From Woeseia sp. (GTDB taxonomy: Bacteria > Pseudomonadota > Gammaproteobacteria > Steroidobacterales > Woeseiaceae), in contig JAJFKW010000001.1 of NCBI GenBank assembly GCA_021773015.1, forward strand, positions 1,905,305 through 1,969,304: a DNA stretch of 64,000 nucleotides, written 5' to 3'. The notes beneath the pieces are model-generated. The model searched no databases. It was not told the DNA's origin and saw only the letters and a list, made by a program, of their open reading frames with translations. The translations under genes and the position numbers were made by a program. Of this stretch, positions 55,080-64,000 are shown one piece after another. Numbering within the stretch: the first letter of the stretch is position 1; each line of letters opens with the position of its first letter.

Positions 55080-55676
55080 TTAGATCGTTTGCTTCTTTAA
55101 TTCTTCGATCAATCGCTGTCGTTCAATGTCCGCACTGTCACCACTACCGAAAATAAACAGCCCTGACGAGTAGCTGGTTCCATAAGAGGTCACAACATTA
55201 GCGGTTTGTCCGAGCCCAACAAGAAACTCTTCGTCCGTAAGCGTGCTCAGTGGGTGAATATAGGTGCCCCACAGGAGTCCCTGTGCGATTGCGTAGCGGG
55301 CATCCAATGCGGAATCGAAATTGGCCTGCATTAACCGCAACAGCTCCTCACTATCGACCTCATCGGCCTTGCCAATGGGAATTAGAATTCGCATTCGGTC
55401 GGCCGCAGGGTCGAATACCAGAATTGTATCGAGCCCGGCTACTTGAAAATGCCAAGTGGTCTGGTTAAGCGTCGCCTCTTCATCGACTCGCAGGATGAGC
55501 TCGCCTAGCCGTTCAACGGTCATCGGCGATCCGTTAAATGCCTCTTCCGGCTCATCAGGTTGCTCAGATTCTTCATCCTGGGCAAGCAGCGAAACACCGC
55601 CAAGGCTTACGCAGAGCGCGATGAGTGCCGGGACAAACCAGCGGCGTACAGAATTGTTTAGCACTACATTCTCCAA
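55080..55676 (-). CDS. Exported CesT/YbjN-fold-like protein
   Basis: 198 residues. Signal peptide ending near LLA (about 32), then an acidic linker and a domain of about 140 residues (LNQTTWHFQVAGLDTILVFD, MRILIPIG, LLRLMQANFDSALDARYAIAQGLLW) whose pattern recalls YbjN/CesT chaperone-like folds. This is a weak similarity; no function is assigned. It lies between the sigma factor and a TonB-dependent receptor. Confidence 0.55.
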   Translation of the reverse strand: MENVVLNNSVRRWFVPALIALCVSLGGVSLLAQDEESEQPDEPEEAFNGSPMTVERLGELILRVDEEATLNQTTWHFQVAGLDTILVFDPAADRMRILIPIGKADEVDSEELLRLMQANFDSALDARYAIAQGLLWGTYIHPLSTLTDEEFLVGLGQTANVVTSYGTSYSSGLFIFGSGDSADIERQRLIEELKKQTI

Positions 55677-55749: not shown

Positions 55750-58089
55750 CTAGAAGTCGAACTGTGTGCGGACGTAATAATAAGCACCGTTCATGCCTAT
55801 GCCCGACAATACGTCATACGGCAAGTGACCGAAGAAGTTAATGTCATCGCTCGATAGGTCAGGATATTCGTCCGTCAAATTATCCGCGCCGACCGCAACT
55901 GTCCAGGCCTCGGTGATATTCGCTGCAAACTCCGCATCAATCGACCAGACCGATTCATAAGTCTGCTCCGGCTCAAAGCCTCCACCAAAATCGAAAATAC
56001 GTGTGGTATCACCGAACTGCGTCGCTCTCAACAGTAGGGAATAGCGGTCAACTTTCCAGGTTCCGGACGCTATGAACTTGTCTTCCGGTGGCGCCGTCTC
56101 AATAGTATTAAGGTCTTCCACTCCCAGAACGCCTGGATTTTGAACGTCCGTCTCCGAATTATTGTAAGAAGCGCTCCAGTTAAGCGAACCACTTCCAAGA
56201 TCGGTGGTACCCGACAGTACGACATCGAAACCGGTCGTTTCCGTATCCACCAAGTTGGAGAAATACAAGACGTTATTAGCGGCACTAAACAATGAAATTC
56301 GATCATCTACGTCTATTTGAAACCAATCGACCGTCAATTCGAATGCCGGCCCCATATCAACGACAAATCCAACGCTAACGTTGGTAGCAGACTCCTCCTC
56401 AAGTGGGACCGCGCCGTTCGCAATTGCGACCGGGTCCGAAACAGGCAAGAGACCAAATAACTCCAGCATTCCACCGGCGCCGAAATTGGTTGTAGAGTTC
56501 TCGAAACTCGTTTGCACGAGTGACGGCGCTCTAAAACTTGTGCCAACTGCGGCGCGAATCGAAAATTCATCAGACAGGTGATAAATGCCAGATAATTTAC
56601 CCGTTAGTTGATTACCGAAATCGTCATAGTCTTCAAAACGAGCAGCAGCGCCAACTGTAAATTGATCCGTCAGGTCGGCTCCGACGTCGACATAGACCGA
56701 ATAAATTAGCCTATCTGCATCAGCCTCACTACCTTCCGCAAGACCCGGCCCTGCTTGAGCACCAACGGCGGCGTCAATTGGGCCTATTTCAAATGATGCC
56801 GGATCGCCGGCTGTCGTTTCATAGTCCTCCGTTCTGATCTCTACGCCATACGCTAGCGTGAGCGGCCCAGCGAACGAATCGGTGTCAATTTCGCGTACCA
56901 AATCCGCGTTTAGCGTCAATTGCGTGAATTGAAAACTGCCAAGATCAAAACTCGTGGGGCTCGCAGGCCCTAGCGACGGATTCGCGGAATCCTTGACGCC
57001 CGATTCGAAATCGTTCTGGCCAAGTGTCACGCTGATATCCCAATCCGATTGTAAGAATCCTGAGCCCCTTAAACCTGCAGAGAACGAGAAATCCGTATTG
57101 TCGCCCAATGTAATCGGACGAAAACCATTCGGATGCAAGCTCGGAACGCTCTCGAATCCGTTGGGATAGCGAAAAAAGCCAGTGCCTTCTGTTTCACGGT
57201 TCGAATATCGGCCGAATGTGTAAAACTCATTTTCACCCGCCGGAAGGCTCGCGTTGTAAAACAAATAAATATCGTCCGCCCCACCGTCACCGGGTGAGAA
57301 CACTCGCGCCGGATCCAACGCCAAATTCGCCGGCGTTTGATCTTCAAAAAATGGTAGTACACCAATTCCGGCGCGATTCGTCGGATTACGCTCGCGGTAC
57401 TCACCACCAATGCGCAAACTACCGCCATCGCCTACTTCGAATCCATAATCAGCGGCAATCGACACCGTATGTCCATCTGTAATTGTCTGGTCACCTATTG
57501 GCTCAAGATCCGTGCGATGTGCGCCGTAGGAGGCGGTCACCGTCCCGCCCTCGTTAGCGTCTTTCAGAACGATGTTGATTACGCCTGCAATTGCATCGGA
57601 GCCATATTGCGCGCCAGCACCGTCACGCAGGATTTCGATTCGTTTGATTGAGTTCAGCGCAATCGTGTTGAAGTCGAAAGGGTTGGCGCCCAGACCGATC
57701 TTCGATTCCAGCGCGGCAACTGATGCTGGGTGCTGACGTTTGCCATTCACTAGAACCAACACGTGATCGGGGTTCATGCCACGTAGTTGCGCAGCACGCA
57801 CATGATCGCCAACACCGGAGTTCGATTGGCGCGGAAAATTAAATGATGGCGACAGCGCCTGCAGCAACTCCCCGAGTTCGCCGCCAAATGAATGTACTTC
57901 TGCAATTTCGTCTGCGCCGATCACATCGATAGGAACCGCACTATCGAGTGGATCGCGTGCGTCACCGCGAGTACCGACAACGACAACTTCTTCAGTGACA
58001 TCGTCTTGCGCAATCGCAAACGCTGTTGCAAATAGAGAACTGCTGAGTGCTGCAATTATGGTTGCAGCGAATTTGATTTTTTGATTCAT
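55750..58089 (-). CDS. TonB-dependent outer-membrane receptor
   Basis: 779 residues. Signal peptide to about 27 (AIAQ), TonB box EEVVVVGTRGDARDP, plug with QLRGMNPDHVLVLVNGKRQHP and ILRDGAGAQYGSDAIAGVIN, C-terminal strand ending YYYVRTQFDF. The plug type is that of siderophore/cobalamin/purine-like receptors with a VLVNGKR motif. Its ATG overlaps the stop of the exported SAM hydroxide adenosyltransferase gene (ATGA), so it is translated with it. A product or substrate of that enzyme may be the ligand. Confidence 0.92.
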   Translation of the reverse strand: MNQKIKFAATIIAALSSSLFATAFAIAQDDVTEEVVVVGTRGDARDPLDSAVPIDVIGADEIAEVHSFGGELGELLQALSPSFNFPRQSNSGVGDHVRAAQLRGMNPDHVLVLVNGKRQHPASVAALESKIGLGANPFDFNTIALNSIKRIEILRDGAGAQYGSDAIAGVINIVLKDANEGGTVTASYGAHRTDLEPIGDQTITDGHTVSIAADYGFEVGDGGSLRIGGEYRERNPTNRAGIGVLPFFEDQTPANLALDPARVFSPGDGGADDIYLFYNASLPAGENEFYTFGRYSNRETEGTGFFRYPNGFESVPSLHPNGFRPITLGDNTDFSFSAGLRGSGFLQSDWDISVTLGQNDFESGVKDSANPSLGPASPTSFDLGSFQFTQLTLNADLVREIDTDSFAGPLTLAYGVEIRTEDYETTAGDPASFEIGPIDAAVGAQAGPGLAEGSEADADRLIYSVYVDVGADLTDQFTVGAAARFEDYDDFGNQLTGKLSGIYHLSDEFSIRAAVGTSFRAPSLVQTSFENSTTNFGAGGMLELFGLLPVSDPVAIANGAVPLEEESATNVSVGFVVDMGPAFELTVDWFQIDVDDRISLFSAANNVLYFSNLVDTETTGFDVVLSGTTDLGSGSLNWSASYNNSETDVQNPGVLGVEDLNTIETAPPEDKFIASGTWKVDRYSLLLRATQFGDTTRIFDFGGGFEPEQTYESVWSIDAEFAANITEAWTVAVGADNLTDEYPDLSSDDINFFGHLPYDVLSGIGMNGAYYYVRTQFDF

Positions 58090-59057
58090 TTTACTATCTC
58101 GATTTTCCAGCTCGGGCCGGATTGAATATCATGGGTAGCGGAAAAATTTCCCTGGTTGAGAGCTAGCGCAACATCATTCAAACTGTTTAGGTAGAGCAGC
58201 GGTTCGCCAACAGCGACGCCACCGAATGTATTGAAGAAGGGCAATCGAATTTTCAATACGTCCTTGTCACCGTCAGTTATTTTGACGTGCACTAGTTGGC
58301 CTGGCGCTACACCGAGTTGGCGAAACGTCTTGCGATCGATATTTGTCCAAATATTGCCGTACTGCGGGTCTAGGATCTCAATATTGCCAACAATCCGGCC
58401 CTCGTTATAGGAAGGCTTTTGGTAGTCAATGGTCAATACTTCGGCCGGTAACTCTCTACCGACTTCCTCAAATGTAATCACGTCTGCCGCGAGTCTGGCG
58501 CCGGTGTAAGCGTAAACGTCGCGACCGTGGAACGTATACGATCTTTCGGAATTCGCGAGGCGGTTGACTGCCTCGTCAATCTCGCGAACTGCCTCGATTC
58601 CCAGTAATTCTGCTACTGCTGTCAAGCTGCCGTTATCTGGAGAAACGAAGAAGTGCCCACTCTTAGTTTTCAACACGACGGATTTCCGCACCGTGCCAAC
58701 GCCCGGATCTACGACCGACACGAACACTGTGCCGGCAGGCCAATATTCAGCTGCCTGCGCCAGACGCAACGATGCTTCCCAAATATTGAACGCAGGCACT
58801 TCGTGAGTAAGGTCGTGTATCGCAAGATCAGACGAGATGCTAGCCGCCACACCCTTCATTGATGCAACTGCGGAGTCTTTCACGCCAAAGTCGGACTGCA
58901 GCACCAACGGACCTTCAGCCCAAGCGCCGAATCCGGTCAGCATCGCGCACATAGCTAAACAGTATTTTATGCCGTCGACAGCACGACACCGGCCAGTTCT
59001 TCGGCCTGTGCCATGTCGCAGTAAAACGTGAAAAATTGTGGAATTTTTTATTGTCAT
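58086..59057 (-). CDS. Exported SAM hydroxide adenosyltransferase (DUF62) 1
   Basis: 323 residues from the ATG at 59057 (GGGGGC upstream); an ATG 18 bases earlier is less likely. The N-terminus is a long signal with hydrophobic part CLAMCAMLTGFGAWA. DUF62 motifs follow: LQSDFG with Asp56, VDPGVG with Asp117, Arg124, SPDNGSL and FHGRD with His177. The Asp-Arg-His triad (7 and 60 residues apart) is that of SAM hydrolases, not halogenases, so SAM is expected to give adenosine and methionine. Export of such an enzyme is unusual. Confidence 0.85.
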   Translation of the reverse strand: MTIKNSTIFHVLLRHGTGRRTGRCRAVDGIKYCLAMCAMLTGFGAWAEGPLVLQSDFGVKDSAVASMKGVAASISSDLAIHDLTHEVPAFNIWEASLRLAQAAEYWPAGTVFVSVVDPGVGTVRKSVVLKTKSGHFFVSPDNGSLTAVAELLGIEAVREIDEAVNRLANSERSYTFHGRDVYAYTGARLAADVITFEEVGRELPAEVLTIDYQKPSYNEGRIVGNIEILDPQYGNIWTNIDRKTFRQLGVAPGQLVHVKITDGDKDVLKIRLPFFNTFGGVAVGEPLLYLNSLNDVALALNQGNFSATHDIQSGPSWKIEIVK

Positions 59058-59073
59058 TTGGAGCCCCCGTGTC

Positions 59074-59094
59074 AAGATCGTCGTTGACGATCTT
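59074..59094. promoter_or_regulatory. Palindrome between the two SAM hydroxide adenosyltransferase genes
   Basis: AAGATCGTC, three bases, GACGATCTT: perfect nine-base arms in the 76-base region between the divergent starts. It could be a shared operator. Confidence 0.5.
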
Positions 59095-59133
59095 CTGTAT
59101 TATGACTCTTCTGCCACCAAAAAGGTTTAACAA

Positions 59134-60060
59134 ATGAGTAACTTCATATGCAAAATTGTTATGGTTTTTTTGTTGGCGGGAATGGCTGCAGCCGAACCCC
59201 CGAGCGAGCACGCTCCACTCGTTCTCATGAGTGATTTTGGTACTACGGAGCGATTCGTCGCGAGCATGAAGGGTGTCGCGATGATCGTGGACGCCGAATT
59301 GCAAATACATGACCTGACGCATCAGATCGAACCCTTCAATATCTGGCAAGCATCATACCTGCTGTCTGGAACGATCGATTTTTGGCCGGTCGGAACGGTA
59401 TTCGTGTCGGTGGTCGATCCTGGTGTCGGCACCAAACGCCGATCTGTGGTTGTCGAGACGCGCTCGGGGCACTACATCGTCACCCCGGACAATGGCAGCT
59501 TGACTCTAGTAGCAGACAAGCAGGGTATTAAATCAATTCGCGAAATTGACGAACGGACGAACCGACGCCCTGGCTCCGCAGACTCCCACACCTTCCACGG
59601 CCGCGACGTCTATTCGTATACCGGCGCACGCCTGGCCGCATCGGTGATCTCCTATGCGGAGGTCGGACCGGAGTTACCGAATAAGGTTGTCCGGCTTACC
59701 TACCAAAAAGCGGCGATATCGGACAATAAATCGATAATCGGTAACTTGACCCACGTGGAGATGCCGTTCGGCAACATTGTCACTAATATACCGAAGGGCA
59801 TGCTGGACAAACACGGCATAACGCCGGGTCAAAACTCGCGGGTTAAGATCAAAATATCGAAAGCCGGGAGATCTGTTTTCACACAATCGCTGAACTATGC
59901 ACCCTCGTTTGGATTTGTGGGTGCTGGTGAGCCCTTGCTGTACAGCGACTCATTACAAATGCTCGGCCTCGCCATCAATAGCGGCGATTTTTCAGCGCAG
60001 CATTCCGTAGGCGCCGGTCATGATTGGACGATCGAAATTGCTAAACAAACAGCTGACTAA
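59134..60060 (+). CDS. Exported SAM hydroxide adenosyltransferase (DUF62) 2
   Basis: 308 residues with a Sec signal peptide ending near AAA (about 20). DUF62 motifs: LMSDFG with Asp34, VDPGVG with Asp95, Arg102, TPDNGSL, and FHGRD with His155. The triad is complete, with the same spacing as in the divergent paralogue. It is likely to be a periplasmic SAM hydrolase. The two copies differ along their length, so they are old paralogues, possibly with different substrates or partners. AAAGG precedes the ATG. Confidence 0.85.
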   Translation: MSNFICKIVMVFLLAGMAAAEPPSEHAPLVLMSDFGTTERFVASMKGVAMIVDAELQIHDLTHQIEPFNIWQASYLLSGTIDFWPVGTVFVSVVDPGVGTKRRSVVVETRSGHYIVTPDNGSLTLVADKQGIKSIREIDERTNRRPGSADSHTFHGRDVYSYTGARLAASVISYAEVGPELPNKVVRLTYQKAAISDNKSIIGNLTHVEMPFGNIVTNIPKGMLDKHGITPGQNSRVKIKISKAGRSVFTQSLNYAPSFGFVGAGEPLLYSDSLQMLGLAINSGDFSAQHSVGAGHDWTIEIAKQTAD

Positions 60061-60127: not shown

Positions 60128-61609
60128 TTACTCGCTGGTGTCGGCATGCGAGAGCTTCTTCACTAAGCGATACAGGAATTCCTGTCCCTCGAAATAAGAC
60201 TCAATAAGAATCCGCTCGTTTTGGCCATGCGCGCGCGAATCGTCGATATCGCCAAACAATCCAGACACGCCATAAACCGGAATTCCCGCGTTGCGTAAAA
60301 ACAGACCGTCCGTTGCACCGGTACTCATCATCGGAACAACCGGCACGCCAGGCCACATTTCCTCTGTTGCTGATTCGATCGCGCCGAGCACCTCGGGCGT
60401 TAGTGGAGACGGCGCAGAGGGCGTTGCCTCCTGAACACGGGAGACCGTTACCTGATTGTTACCAACAACAGTTTCCAACGTCGCATGCACTGCATCGATC
60501 GACTCGCCAGGCAAAACGCGGCAGTTCACCGTCGCGATGGCGCGCTGCGGCAGCGCATTTTCCGCGTGACCCGCGTCCAATTGTGTCGCTACACAAGTAG
60601 TACGCAGCCGGGAATTGTAAAATGGTATTTCCTGCAGAAAAGCAATAGCGGCCGAATCCGGTGGGCTTTGCAATACACCGCGCATGGCATTTGCGAGATT
60701 CCCTTCTTCCAGTTCCGCTGACCGCTCAAAAAATGACTTTGTAACTTCATTCAGACTGACCGGAAAATCATGATTCCGAACACGCACCAAGGCATCAGCA
60801 AGATGGTAGATTGCGTTGTCTTTTTTCGGCAACGAGCTGTGTCCACCTGGGTTCGTCACTTCAAATTCAAATGTTTGATACACTTTTTCGCTGGCTTGTA
60901 CACCGTTGGCGATTCTGCGACCTTCTTTCATCGCGCCACCGCCGCCTTCATTTAACGCGTACTCCGCATCGATGAGTTCCGGGTGATTCTCCAGCAACCA
61001 GGTCACGCCATTGTGGTCGCCCCCTTCTTCGTCTGCCGTTAATGCAACAATAATGTCGCGATCCGGTTGATAACCCTCTTGTTTCAAACGAATCAAGTTT
61101 GCGACGTGGATTGCGGCTTCGTCCTTATCGTCGGTCGTGCCACGACCGTAGTAGTAACCGTCTTGTTCGATGAACGTGAATGGATCGAGGGTCCAATCAG
61201 CGGGGTCCGCTTCGACAACATCAATATGCGCCAGCAGCAGGATCGGCTTTCTACCGGTATCTCTGCCGCGCAGGCGCGCGACCAAATTGCCCTTGCGATC
61301 AACCGGACCTAATACGCGCACGTCTTCTTGCGTAAAACCGGCCGCCAATAATCGATTTGCCATGGCCTGAGCAGCTGCTGTGTTGTCGCCTTTGCTGTCG
61401 GTTGTGTCAATTTCGATCAGCTCTTTCAGCAGATCTCTCGCTAACTGCTGATGCGCATCAAGCCCTGGATCAGGTGCTGCTACTTCCGCCTCGGCGGCAG
61501 GTGCTGCAATTTCGTCTACTTCTGCCGGTTCGTCCTGACCACAACCTACGAGAAAGACTGCGCACGCGAAGAAAAATGTGCGCACTGCCGGCACGGTCCA
61601 ATTAGTCAT
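60128..61609 (-). CDS. Lipoprotein M20-family metallopeptidase
   Basis: 493 residues. Lipobox LVGC with Cys23, then an acidic linker and a peptidase M20 domain: LLAHIDVV with His128/Asp130, RGTTDDK with Asp161, ADEEGGD with Glu194/Glu195 and a final His461. All dinuclear zinc ligands seem to be present. It is probably a periplasmic or outer-membrane di/aminopeptidase or carboxypeptidase of the CPG70/PepV-like branch. The start is the ATG at 61609. Confidence 0.88.
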   Translation of the reverse strand: MTNWTVPAVRTFFFACAVFLVGCGQDEPAEVDEIAAPAAEAEVAAPDPGLDAHQQLARDLLKELIEIDTTDSKGDNTAAAQAMANRLLAAGFTQEDVRVLGPVDRKGNLVARLRGRDTGRKPILLLAHIDVVEADPADWTLDPFTFIEQDGYYYGRGTTDDKDEAAIHVANLIRLKQEGYQPDRDIIVALTADEEGGDHNGVTWLLENHPELIDAEYALNEGGGGAMKEGRRIANGVQASEKVYQTFEFEVTNPGGHSSLPKKDNAIYHLADALVRVRNHDFPVSLNEVTKSFFERSAELEEGNLANAMRGVLQSPPDSAAIAFLQEIPFYNSRLRTTCVATQLDAGHAENALPQRAIATVNCRVLPGESIDAVHATLETVVGNNQVTVSRVQEATPSAPSPLTPEVLGAIESATEEMWPGVPVVPMMSTGATDGLFLRNAGIPVYGVSGLFGDIDDSRAHGQNERILIESYFEGQEFLYRLVKKLSHADTSE

Positions 61610-61645: not shown

Positions 61646-62236
61646 TTACGCAGTTGAGCTTTCAGCGGACTCACCTGCAGCATTTGATTCATTGATCAAT
61701 TTTCGAATTTCCGTCCATTCCATTTTGAACCAGGGCGTAAATTGATCGGCATTGATTGTTAATTGTTCGTCAATTTCGCCAACCGAAAAGTGGCGAACTT
61801 CTGCGATCTCCGATTCATTGATACTTAGCGATCCGTTGTAGTACCCGACATACACAGAGCAAAGCTCGTTTTCAGAACCGACATCTTCATAATTCGCCTG
61901 ATACTGAAATTTGTAAACGAAAGACACCTTGCACGCCACACCCAGTTCCTCGTGCATTCTGCGGCGAATCGCGACGTCCATCGACTCACCAACTCTTGGG
62001 TGACTACAGCAACTATTCGACCAATAAAGCGGCCACAACGGCTTGTCGGCACTACGCTTTTGCATGAGAACCGCGCCGCTAGAATCGACCAGAAATACGG
62101 AGAAGGCACGATGCAAAATGCCATCGCCCAGATGGCAATCTGTTTTCGACATCTCACCCAGTGAATTGTCATCATCGTCGACGAGTATGAGTTGCTCAGA
62201 CGGAAAAGAGACGATGTCCCTGCGTTGCATATTCAA
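61646..62236 (-). CDS. idi: Isopentenyl-diphosphate delta-isomerase type 1
   Basis: 196 residues, Nudix fold. LHRAFSVFL, WSNSCCSHP with catalytic Cys77, RRMHEELG and SENELC with Glu124 match Idi-1. It interconverts IPP and DMAPP, balancing precursors for the adjacent squalene/phytoene and FPP synthases. Being next to them suggests a terpenoid (squalene/hopanoid or carotenoid) gene group. The gene reads in the same direction as the synthase upstream. Confidence 0.93.
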   Translation of the reverse strand: MNMQRRDIVSFPSEQLILVDDDDNSLGEMSKTDCHLGDGILHRAFSVFLVDSSGAVLMQKRSADKPLWPLYWSNSCCSHPRVGESMDVAIRRRMHEELGVACKVSFVYKFQYQANYEDVGSENELCSVYVGYYNGSLSINESEIAEVRHFSVGEIDEQLTINADQFTPWFKMEWTEIRKLINESNAAGESAESSTA

Positions 62237-62294
62237 TTCCTAAGGGGTATCTAGCGCGAATAATACTCTCTATCAGGTACTCTGCGCACGCAAC

Positions 62295-63428
62295 CTAGTG
62301 CAGGCCTGTTTCGCGGACCGCCGGCGACTGTCCGACTTGAGCTTCGACCATGCTCTTAAGTCGTACCGGATCGCAGACTTCGTCGACATCGGCAAGCGGC
62401 AAGCCCATGGATGCCAAATCAAACCAGGCACGGACAAGGTGATTGCTATAAATCACGCTATTACAACTCAGCATAACCGCCCTGACTCTGCGGCGAGATA
62501 TTTTTACCGTGTCACCATTGCTATAGCCCGGATTACGGTAAATTTTTTGTAACGTCAACAGCGCCATGCCGATTGCCCACAGACAAAATCGACGAATACC
62601 GACCTGACTTTTCGGAATCATACAACTGTAATTCAGCGCCATTTTGAGATTGGCGTGCGCAATACCAACTAGTTCGTCGATGCCGTTTGCCAACTCCGCC
62701 GAATCTTTATTGCGAATCAGAACGCCAAGATTTTCGCTGTTTTCGCCAAATGCTGAACGCGGCAACCAGCACGATCCGTCGTCACTATCTTCCCAGACGT
62801 CTTTGAGAATATTGGTCATCTGCAAGCCATGTCCGAAGCAGACCGCCAAATCCATCATCGTGTCTTTGTTGTCGCGGATTTCATCAACTTGCTGACTGAA
62901 TAGCTCAGTCAGCATTTCCCCGACGACGCCCGCAACGACGTAGCAGTAACGATACATATCCGATATAGACTTCAGGCCACTTAGACTTTTGCTTACCTGA
63001 AACTCGTGCATGCCATTACACATAATTCGCGTGCAACGAATCAGCGATTGTTGCTGCGCCTCGGTCAGCACGTGCGTAAGCTCGACAACCGTCGGCGTCG
63101 CGGCGATTAATTCGCGCTCGTTATGCGGCACACTGGCCGACAAAGCACCGTGCAGCCTCGCCGCAAACTGGGCGGCGTTTGAGCGTTTGTTGAGGACAGC
63201 CATAAACTCTTTATAAAGGGAGAATTTGGCGTCGTTATCGATACCCGGATCGTCTTCTATCGTATCCACGATCCGGCACAGCAAGTAGCCATTACCGACG
63301 ACATTGCGCAATTCCTTTGGCAGCTGCGGAATCGTCAACGCAAAGGTCCGCGAAACGCCTCGTAACAGGCTTGCCTGGACGGCCCAGTTATCGCTTTCCA
63401 CGGCCTCAATGTTGTCTAAACGAGCCAC
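62295..63428 (-). CDS. Squalene/phytoene synthase family enzyme
   Basis: 377 residues. First Asp-rich motif DTIEDD (55-60), second DVWED (210-214), plus VSRTFALTIPQLP and YCYVVAGVVGEMLTELF. The features are nearer to squalene synthases (one-enzyme, eukaryote-like) than to phytoene synthases, but this cannot be fixed by eye. It would join two farnesyl or geranylgeranyl diphosphates. Divergent from ispA, upstream of idi. No signal peptide. Confidence 0.85.
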   Translation of the reverse strand: MARLDNIEAVESDNWAVQASLLRGVSRTFALTIPQLPKELRNVVGNGYLLCRIVDTIEDDPGIDNDAKFSLYKEFMAVLNKRSNAAQFAARLHGALSASVPHNERELIAATPTVVELTHVLTEAQQQSLIRCTRIMCNGMHEFQVSKSLSGLKSISDMYRYCYVVAGVVGEMLTELFSQQVDEIRDNKDTMMDLAVCFGHGLQMTNILKDVWEDSDDGSCWLPRSAFGENSENLGVLIRNKDSAELANGIDELVGIAHANLKMALNYSCMIPKSQVGIRRFCLWAIGMALLTLQKIYRNPGYSNGDTVKISRRRVRAVMLSCNSVIYSNHLVRAWFDLASMGLPLADVDEVCDPVRLKSMVEAQVGQSPAVRETGLH

Positions 63429-63489
63429 TTAATCCCCTTGTTGACAATGACCTTACTCAGCATTGAGACTGTAGCCGGCGCGACAGGCG

Positions 63490-63506
63490 GGCCATCCGGG
63501 ATGGCC
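63490..63506. promoter_or_regulatory. Inverted repeat between squalene synthase and ispA
   Basis: GGCCATC, CGG, GATGGCC: perfect seven-base arms in the divergent region 63429-63610. A candidate operator or stem; no regulator is adjacent. Confidence 0.35.
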
Positions 63507-63610
63507 AAATGCTGCGGATTCAATTCCGCTAACGATTCTCGCAAACTTTGCGGTGAAAAGTTACCAAAATTCAACTTGGCCAATCATTTCTTTTAGGCAA
63601 GGACCCCAAA

Positions 63611-64000
63611 ATGGCTATCGATCGCGGCGAATTCGCGGAGCGAATTCCGCAATATAAGGATAGAATCAATCAGGAATTGGCAACCTGGATCGATCCCCAG
63701 CTCATTGCCAGCGATGCACTGCGCGATGCGATGAGCTACGCGCTGCTCGGCGGCGGCAAGCGAATTCGTCCACTCCTTGCTTACGCGAGCGGTGAACTCC
63801 TGGGAGTTGCCGCCACAGATATTGATGCGATCGCCGCCGCAGTCGAAATGATTCACTGCTACTCGCTGGCTCACGACGATTTACCGGCAATGGATGACGA
63901 TGATATTCGACGCGGACGGGCGACCGTCCATATTGAATATGACGAAGCTACCGCAATTTTGGTGGGCGACGGACTCTTGACCCTGGCATTTCAGGTGCTG
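63611..64000 (+). CDS. ispA: Short-chain polyprenyl (farnesyl) diphosphate synthase, 3' end off the window
   Basis: 130 residues visible. GGGKRIRP at 47-54, first Asp-rich region HDDLPAMDDDD at 88-98 and the following RRGRATVH are those of IspA-type FPP synthases. The start at 63611 follows AAGGA. Makes farnesyl diphosphate from IPP and DMAPP (or GPP), the substrate for the divergent squalene/phytoene synthase. The right edge cuts the gene. Confidence 0.9.
   Translation, partial: MAIDRGEFAERIPQYKDRINQELATWIDPQLIASDALRDAMSYALLGGGKRIRPLLAYASGELLGVAATDIDAIAAAVEMIHCYSLAHDDLPAMDDDDIRRGRATVHIEYDEATAILVGDGLLTLAFQVL

Follow-up and report, generated by a model that had tools for sequence, protein, structure and literature searches.

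DUF62 enzymes hydrolyse SAM to adenosine and methionine, StDUF62 with a preference for (R,S)-SAM; FlA1 favours (S,S)-SAM (PMC10491745; PMC12120602). The physiological role of DUF62 is disputed (PMC10491745; PMC12120602), and a 2025 study questions whether StDUF62 serves in the cell to clear the wrong SAM epimer (PMC12120602). The hydrolase triad is missing from halogenases (PMC10491745). The known DUF62 proteins (StDUF62, PH0463, MJ1651 and T. maritima DUF62) have both domains, the fold and the Asp-Arg-His triad in common with a pair of DUF62 proteins encoded in the window, the whole 64,000-nucleotide stretch analysed here, but the window pair differs from them in belonging to a separate exported clade, in occurring as paired paralogues, in being linked to an importer and in missing the (R)-SAM hydrolase cut-offs. 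The chlorinase SalL and the fluorinase FlA also have this fold, and their D207/W213-type pocket recurs in one of the pair, DUF62a; unlike them, the window proteins carry the hydrolase triad, and with a score of 106.8 against a cut-off of 400 for the fluorinase model a halogenase identity was rejected. FepA/BtuB-like TonB-dependent receptors share their Plug and barrel architecture with the TonB-dependent receptor (TBDR) of the window, which nevertheless represents a subfamily of its own, is coupled to an enzyme and reached no model of known substrate. The S, A and T parts of ECF vitamin transporters (S component PF07155/PRK13661) are found beside related DUF62 genes in Bacillota, but there, in contrast to the vitamin transporters, the sets are joined with DUF62 and a PepV-like dipeptidase; none is present in the window. 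No prior account of an exported or importer-linked DUF62 protein was found in the open-access literature, a scope that leaves most subscription papers outside.

The window belongs to a 4.84-Mb genome (G000) of a Woeseiaceae-like gammaproteobacterium, the nearest named relatives of which are uncultured Woeseiaceae. Positions 55750-60060 comprise the TBDR gene, DUF62a upstream of it and a divergent paralogue, DUF62b, with genes, coordinates and strands confirmed. The TBDR (779 aa; 55750..58089, minus strand) presents Plug and beta-barrel domains (Pfam, 63.7 and 108.2 bits). For DUF62a, a SAM hydroxide adenosyltransferase-like enzyme of the exported clade (58086..59057, minus strand), the ATG at 59057 is the most suitable start, preferred over a TTG at 59075, to which the open reading frame extends (58086-59075). 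The DUF62a stop and the TBDR start overlap as ATGA (58086..58089, minus strand), as the initial annotation had pointed out, and the overlap is exact in 5/5 relatives checked (L033, L034, L035, L036 and L039); judging from this overlap, the TBDR is translationally coupled to DUF62a. Between the DUF62a ATG and DUF62b (59134..60060, plus strand) lies a divergent intergenic region of 76 bp (59058..59133), which presumably holds both promoters. On the evidence of its recurrence in further genera, with receptors 73–77% identical, the arrangement is not a product of chance. A candidate extra member is an M20 hydrolase of the PRK09133 subfamily with a lipobox-like signal (60128..61609, minus strand); the subfamily adjoins the receptor in L134 and lies inside the DUF62a-TBDR operon of L161, but is absent from the neighbourhoods of the remaining TBDR loci, so that its membership in the module is unsure. 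An exported protein encoded downstream (55080-55676) was rejected as a member, having neither a family match nor a labelled homologue at related loci. Positions 61646-64000 of the window carry isoprenoid genes, namely an IPP isomerase-like NUDIX protein, a squalene/phytoene synthase and the start of a polyprenyl synthase-like open reading frame.

Both DUF62 proteins contain SAM_HAT_N and SAM_HAT_C domains (Pfam; N domain E = 5e-51 and 5e-50), with scores of 172.8 and 64.1 bits in DUF62a and 169.5 and 58.7 bits in DUF62b (cut-offs 26.3 and 25.5). The two divergent genes had been credited with full Asp-Arg-His triads, and these are indeed intact, as D123/R130/H183 in DUF62a (329-aa numbering) and D95/R102/H155 in DUF62b; Asp and Arg are invariant across all groups aligned, and His is found in 15/15 DUF62a and 11/13 DUF62b. 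Fold comparison of an AlphaFold model of DUF62a, with a mean pLDDT of 90, gave matches to T. maritima DUF62, to SAM-bound SalL and to fluorinases. From the family chemistry and the intact triads, hydrolase activity is predicted for DUF62a and DUF62b, with SAM as the probable substrate. The cut-offs of the (R)-SAM hydrolase equivalogs were missed by DUF62a (NF058624, 123.5 of 350; NF053629, 114.3 of 470). Within the pocket (numbering of the 299-aa DUF62a), D207 and W213 are fixed in DUF62a, as in SalL and the fluorinase, E207 and V213 are fixed in DUF62b, and the cytosolic type has D with mostly I. On one hypothesis, these differences would give DUF62a and DUF62b distinct substrate or epimer preferences. 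The differences between the paralogues and from the cytosolic type would also suit an identical architecture acting on another natural substrate, a different 5'-activated adenosine such as decarboxylated SAM, a 5'-halo-adenosine, a dimethylsulfonio- or arsonio-adenosine, or an amide-bonded adenosyl compound opened by the M20 hydrolase. DUF62 chemistry requires just a C5' leaving group, and an M20 hydrolase recurs, in Bacillota as the PepV type; however, the DUF62a pocket resembles that of the SAM-using SalL and fluorinase, and the linked LAT-type permease and methionine aminotransferase described below fit methionine. We regard such a substrate as a minor but appreciable possibility.

Signal peptides had been attributed to both proteins. 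Scored by hydropathy and by eye, this stands for DUF62b, which has a textbook signal peptide (MSNFICKIVMVFLLAGMAAAEPP), and less simply for DUF62a, whose N-terminus is atypical, with a basic n-region of ~30 residues followed by CLAMCAMLTGFGAWA-EGP, yet whose orthologues mostly present textbook signals; one orthologue (L036/G009) reads MKKRLQ-SDFG and has seemingly lost its signal. In a tree of 100 DUF62 proteins, an exported type (67 rows) is separated from a cytosolic type (33 rows) with support of 100/100, and both window proteins fall inside the exported clade. Signal peptides or lipoboxes are present in exported-type proteins of Pseudomonadota, KSB1, Calditrichota, Ignavibacteriota, Gemmatimonadota, Planctomycetota, Bacteroidota and some Bacillota, and none was seen among the 33 cytosolic-type rows. 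These signals argue strongly for export of the clade as a whole and, less strongly given its atypical N-terminus, for export of the window DUF62a. Exported DUF62 proteins of five Bacillota MAGs (L053, L055, L056, L059 and L060) have clear N-terminal signals despite their monoderm-type lineages. Within the exported type, the DUF62b clade has support of 99/95 and the DUF62a clade is weaker (89/89); each spans Gammaproteobacteria, Calditrichota/KSB1 and Ignavibacteriota, and the pair would therefore be old or co-travelling. A Bacillota branch of 16 rows linked to ECF genes, without clear signals, is nested within the exported type, consistent with a loss of export.

A third DUF62 protein of the window genome, whose gene lies at a distance of ~0.9 Mb, lacks a signal peptide and groups with the ordinary cytosolic clade. 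Its gene follows that of a queuosine precursor transporter (TIGR00697, above cut-off) by 31 bp (L003 685-2283, plus strand; G000:C1 near 1,018,000-1,019,700); SAM is the ribosyl donor in queuosine synthesis. That the genome keeps this separate cytosolic enzyme bears on a reading in which the exported-type proteins would have the housekeeping task suggested for cytosolic DUF62, clearing the wrong SAM epimer, and their predicted signals would not function. The nearest models carry the NCBIfam name (R)-SAM hydrolase, and the window DUF62a N-terminus is atypical, both of which would fit; against it speak the cytosolic copy and the fact that, the ECF branch apart, almost every exported-clade member has a canonical signal or a lipobox, and we consider it extremely unlikely.

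The TBDR reached no curated cut-off among the receptor models of known substrate (FepA, 94.6 of 583; B12, 90.8 of 599.7), and identification as a siderophore or B12 receptor was rejected on these scores. A receptor of at least 73% identity is present in 5 of 61 related genomes (G000, G005, G009, G026 and G029), in all five directly behind DUF62a with DUF62b divergent; conservation of the receptor without DUF62 partners, which the initial annotation had named as counting against its proposal, was not seen at this level of identity. A sixth close receptor lies behind DUF62a in L034, more distant ones (47–61% identity) occupy this position in G781, G724 and L045, a receptor fragment follows DUF62a in L042 (Melioribacteraceae), and two KSB1 genomes have 34–35% identical receptors near DUF62a. 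A receptor is immediately 3' of DUF62a in about 10 genomes; DUF62a also occurs without an adjacent receptor (L038, L040, L057 and L118), and in G008, where neither DUF62a nor DUF62b was found, a 65% identical receptor ends at a contig edge. The closest profile resemblances, to FepA- and BtuB-like receptors, could be taken to mean that the receptor imports an unrelated cofactor (siderophore, cobalamin) and its coupling to DUF62a is incidental, or that DUF62 acts on the adenosyl group of such a cofactor, for example adenosylcobalamin. However, the scores lie far under the curated cut-offs, linkage to amino-acid and purine genes is repeated, and no cobalamin riboswitch was found; this reading appears highly improbable. 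The riboswitch search covered the window, five Woeseiaceae loci and ten ECF loci, and SAM riboswitches were likewise absent from all of them. A 36% identical receptor paralogue in the window genome (L133 2549-10260; G000:C1 near 3,373,500-3,381,300) lies near FAD oxidoreductases, DadA-like by eye, which hints at amino-acid-like compounds as possible cargo of the receptor subfamily.

The system is rare and patchy, being present in 2/321 Gammaproteobacteria genomes sampled, 20/296 genomes of the order, 14/82 genomes of the phylum of the Calditrichota locus and 2/197 genomes of the class of the Ignavibacteriota locus. Rough binomial estimates for the linkages (permease, 6e-13; receptor subfamily, 2e-10) ignore shared ancestry and should therefore be read as meaning 'not chance' rather than as probabilities.

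Surveying the neighbourhoods of signal-bearing DUF62 genes, as had been suggested at the outset, revealed importers, a permease and purine genes that recur across phyla. One subfamily of LAT-type APC permease adjoins an exported DUF62 or the trailing TBDR in 8 genomes of several phyla (L034, L036, L042, L044, L071, L077, L157 and L158), and a more distant APC permease adjoins a related receptor in G038. Among solved structures, the LAT-type permease is nearest to SLC7 LAT-type transporters and to a bacterial SLC7-like protein. In the window genome, the permease orthologue (65%) lies at another locus, where a methionine aminotransferase gene and a YafV-type amidase gene overlap (both above NCBIfam cut-offs) and the permease gene begins 34 bp behind the latter, a context that suggests methionine as the cargo. 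An MttB-like methyltransferase gene and an apparent second one flank this permease (L164 8446-11816). On the adenosine side, G781 (Woeseiaceae) encodes, in one direction, DUF62a, TBDR, a cyclase, an unknown protein, an M20 hydrolase, a DeoR/LsrR-like regulator and a purine nucleoside phosphorylase (PNP). In a sister exported type (ADF clade), the neighbours are adenosine deaminase, an amidohydrolase, an alpha/beta-hydrolase and MFS in L131, NUP in L132, and NUP, an NCS2 permease, an adenosine deaminase with a signal-like N-terminus and a TBDR in L147. In the last locus, an exported DUF62 is also naturally fused to an alpha/beta-hydrolase domain (L147 7654-9423, minus strand); the two are separate neighbours in L131 and L132.

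The signal-less Bacillota branch occurs in operons that also encode the S, A and T components of an ECF transporter together with a PepV-like dipeptidase. Among gut-type Bacillota (L062, L065, L070, L072, L078, L079, L080, L082 and L085), these operons combine the ECF set (S = PF07155/PRK13661) and a PepV-like M20 dipeptidase with one or two signal-less DUF62 genes; the names HtsT/MtsT were rejected for the ECF transporter, since the literature offers a bare table mention only. Wherever an energised importer adjoins, DUF62 is predicted to reside in the compartment behind that importer, and this match is the strongest argument that DUF62 acts on imported material. Detoxification or defence, which the initial annotation had offered as an alternative to scavenging, would have exported DUF62 break down an extracellular SAM signal or an adenosyl compound that does harm, with the receptor as a coincidental or exploited entry route. 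The exported location would agree with such a role, and SAM and 5'-halo-adenosines can be bioactive; however, the neighbours are importers and catabolic genes, where cytosolic relatives lie beside ECF importers, these would carry the compound into the cell, and no defence or resistance gene was present among the annotated neighbours. With not a single find in its support, defence is unlikely.

The best explanation of the locus, held with moderate confidence, is a module that salvages adenosyl-sulfonium compounds outside the cytoplasm, with SAM as the likeliest. The TBDR would bring the compound across the outer membrane, and in the periplasm DUF62a and DUF62b would let water displace the sulfonium at C5', a step proposed because of the family chemistry and the intact triads, yielding adenosine and methionine. 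Methionine would enter through the LAT-type APC permease, encoded elsewhere in the window genome, and adenosine would pass to nucleoside catabolism (PNP, adenosine deaminase). As old paralogues, DUF62a and DUF62b may divide sulfonium epimers or substrates between them, or assemble together, and the signal-less Bacillota branch would perform the same task in the cytosol behind its ECF importer. The salvage module is favoured by the intact triads, the SAM-enzyme fold, the separate exported clade and the receptor, permease, purine and ECF linkages. Counting against it are the genomes with receptor-less DUF62a, the atypical signal of the window DUF62a, the seeming signal loss in G009, the position of the permease and purine genes away from the module in the window genome, the absence of NUP from that genome when searched, and the M20 partner, which SAM does not account for. 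A further point against it is that SAM is labile at sea-water pH, so that free SAM may be scarce. The inward direction of transport is predicted, and any role of the M20 hydrolase is putative.

The original proposal is supported in part. Comparative context speaks well for a scavenging role in which the receptor is the importer, given the conserved TBDR-DUF62a linkage and neighbours that fit both predicted products (for methionine the permease; for adenosine PNP, adenosine deaminase, NUP and NCS2), with the qualification that DUF62a also occurs without an adjacent receptor; its extension to a module of several phyla is, from comparative genomics, the best explanation and on balance probable. 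More tentatively, and short of probable, this would be a dedicated, patchily and probably horizontally spread system that uses SAM as food, combining TBDR or ECF import, compartment-matched hydrolysis by two specialised DUF62 paralogues, which might each serve one sulfonium epimer or join as heterotrimers, and uptake of both products, methionine and adenosine. Why cells hydrolyse SAM is an open question for DUF62, and the exported, importer-linked branch suggests an answer, open to test, that would hold for part of the family, namely that SAM or a related compound is used from outside. Feeding on outside adenosyl compounds would be a role for which the open-access literature covered here holds no description in the DUF62 family. 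If true, a large branch of DUF62 would gain a physiological role, with SAM itself as a food, the TBDR subfamily and the ECF S component would gain a candidate ligand, and adenosyl-sulfonium compounds would join the substances for which sediment bacteria may compete.
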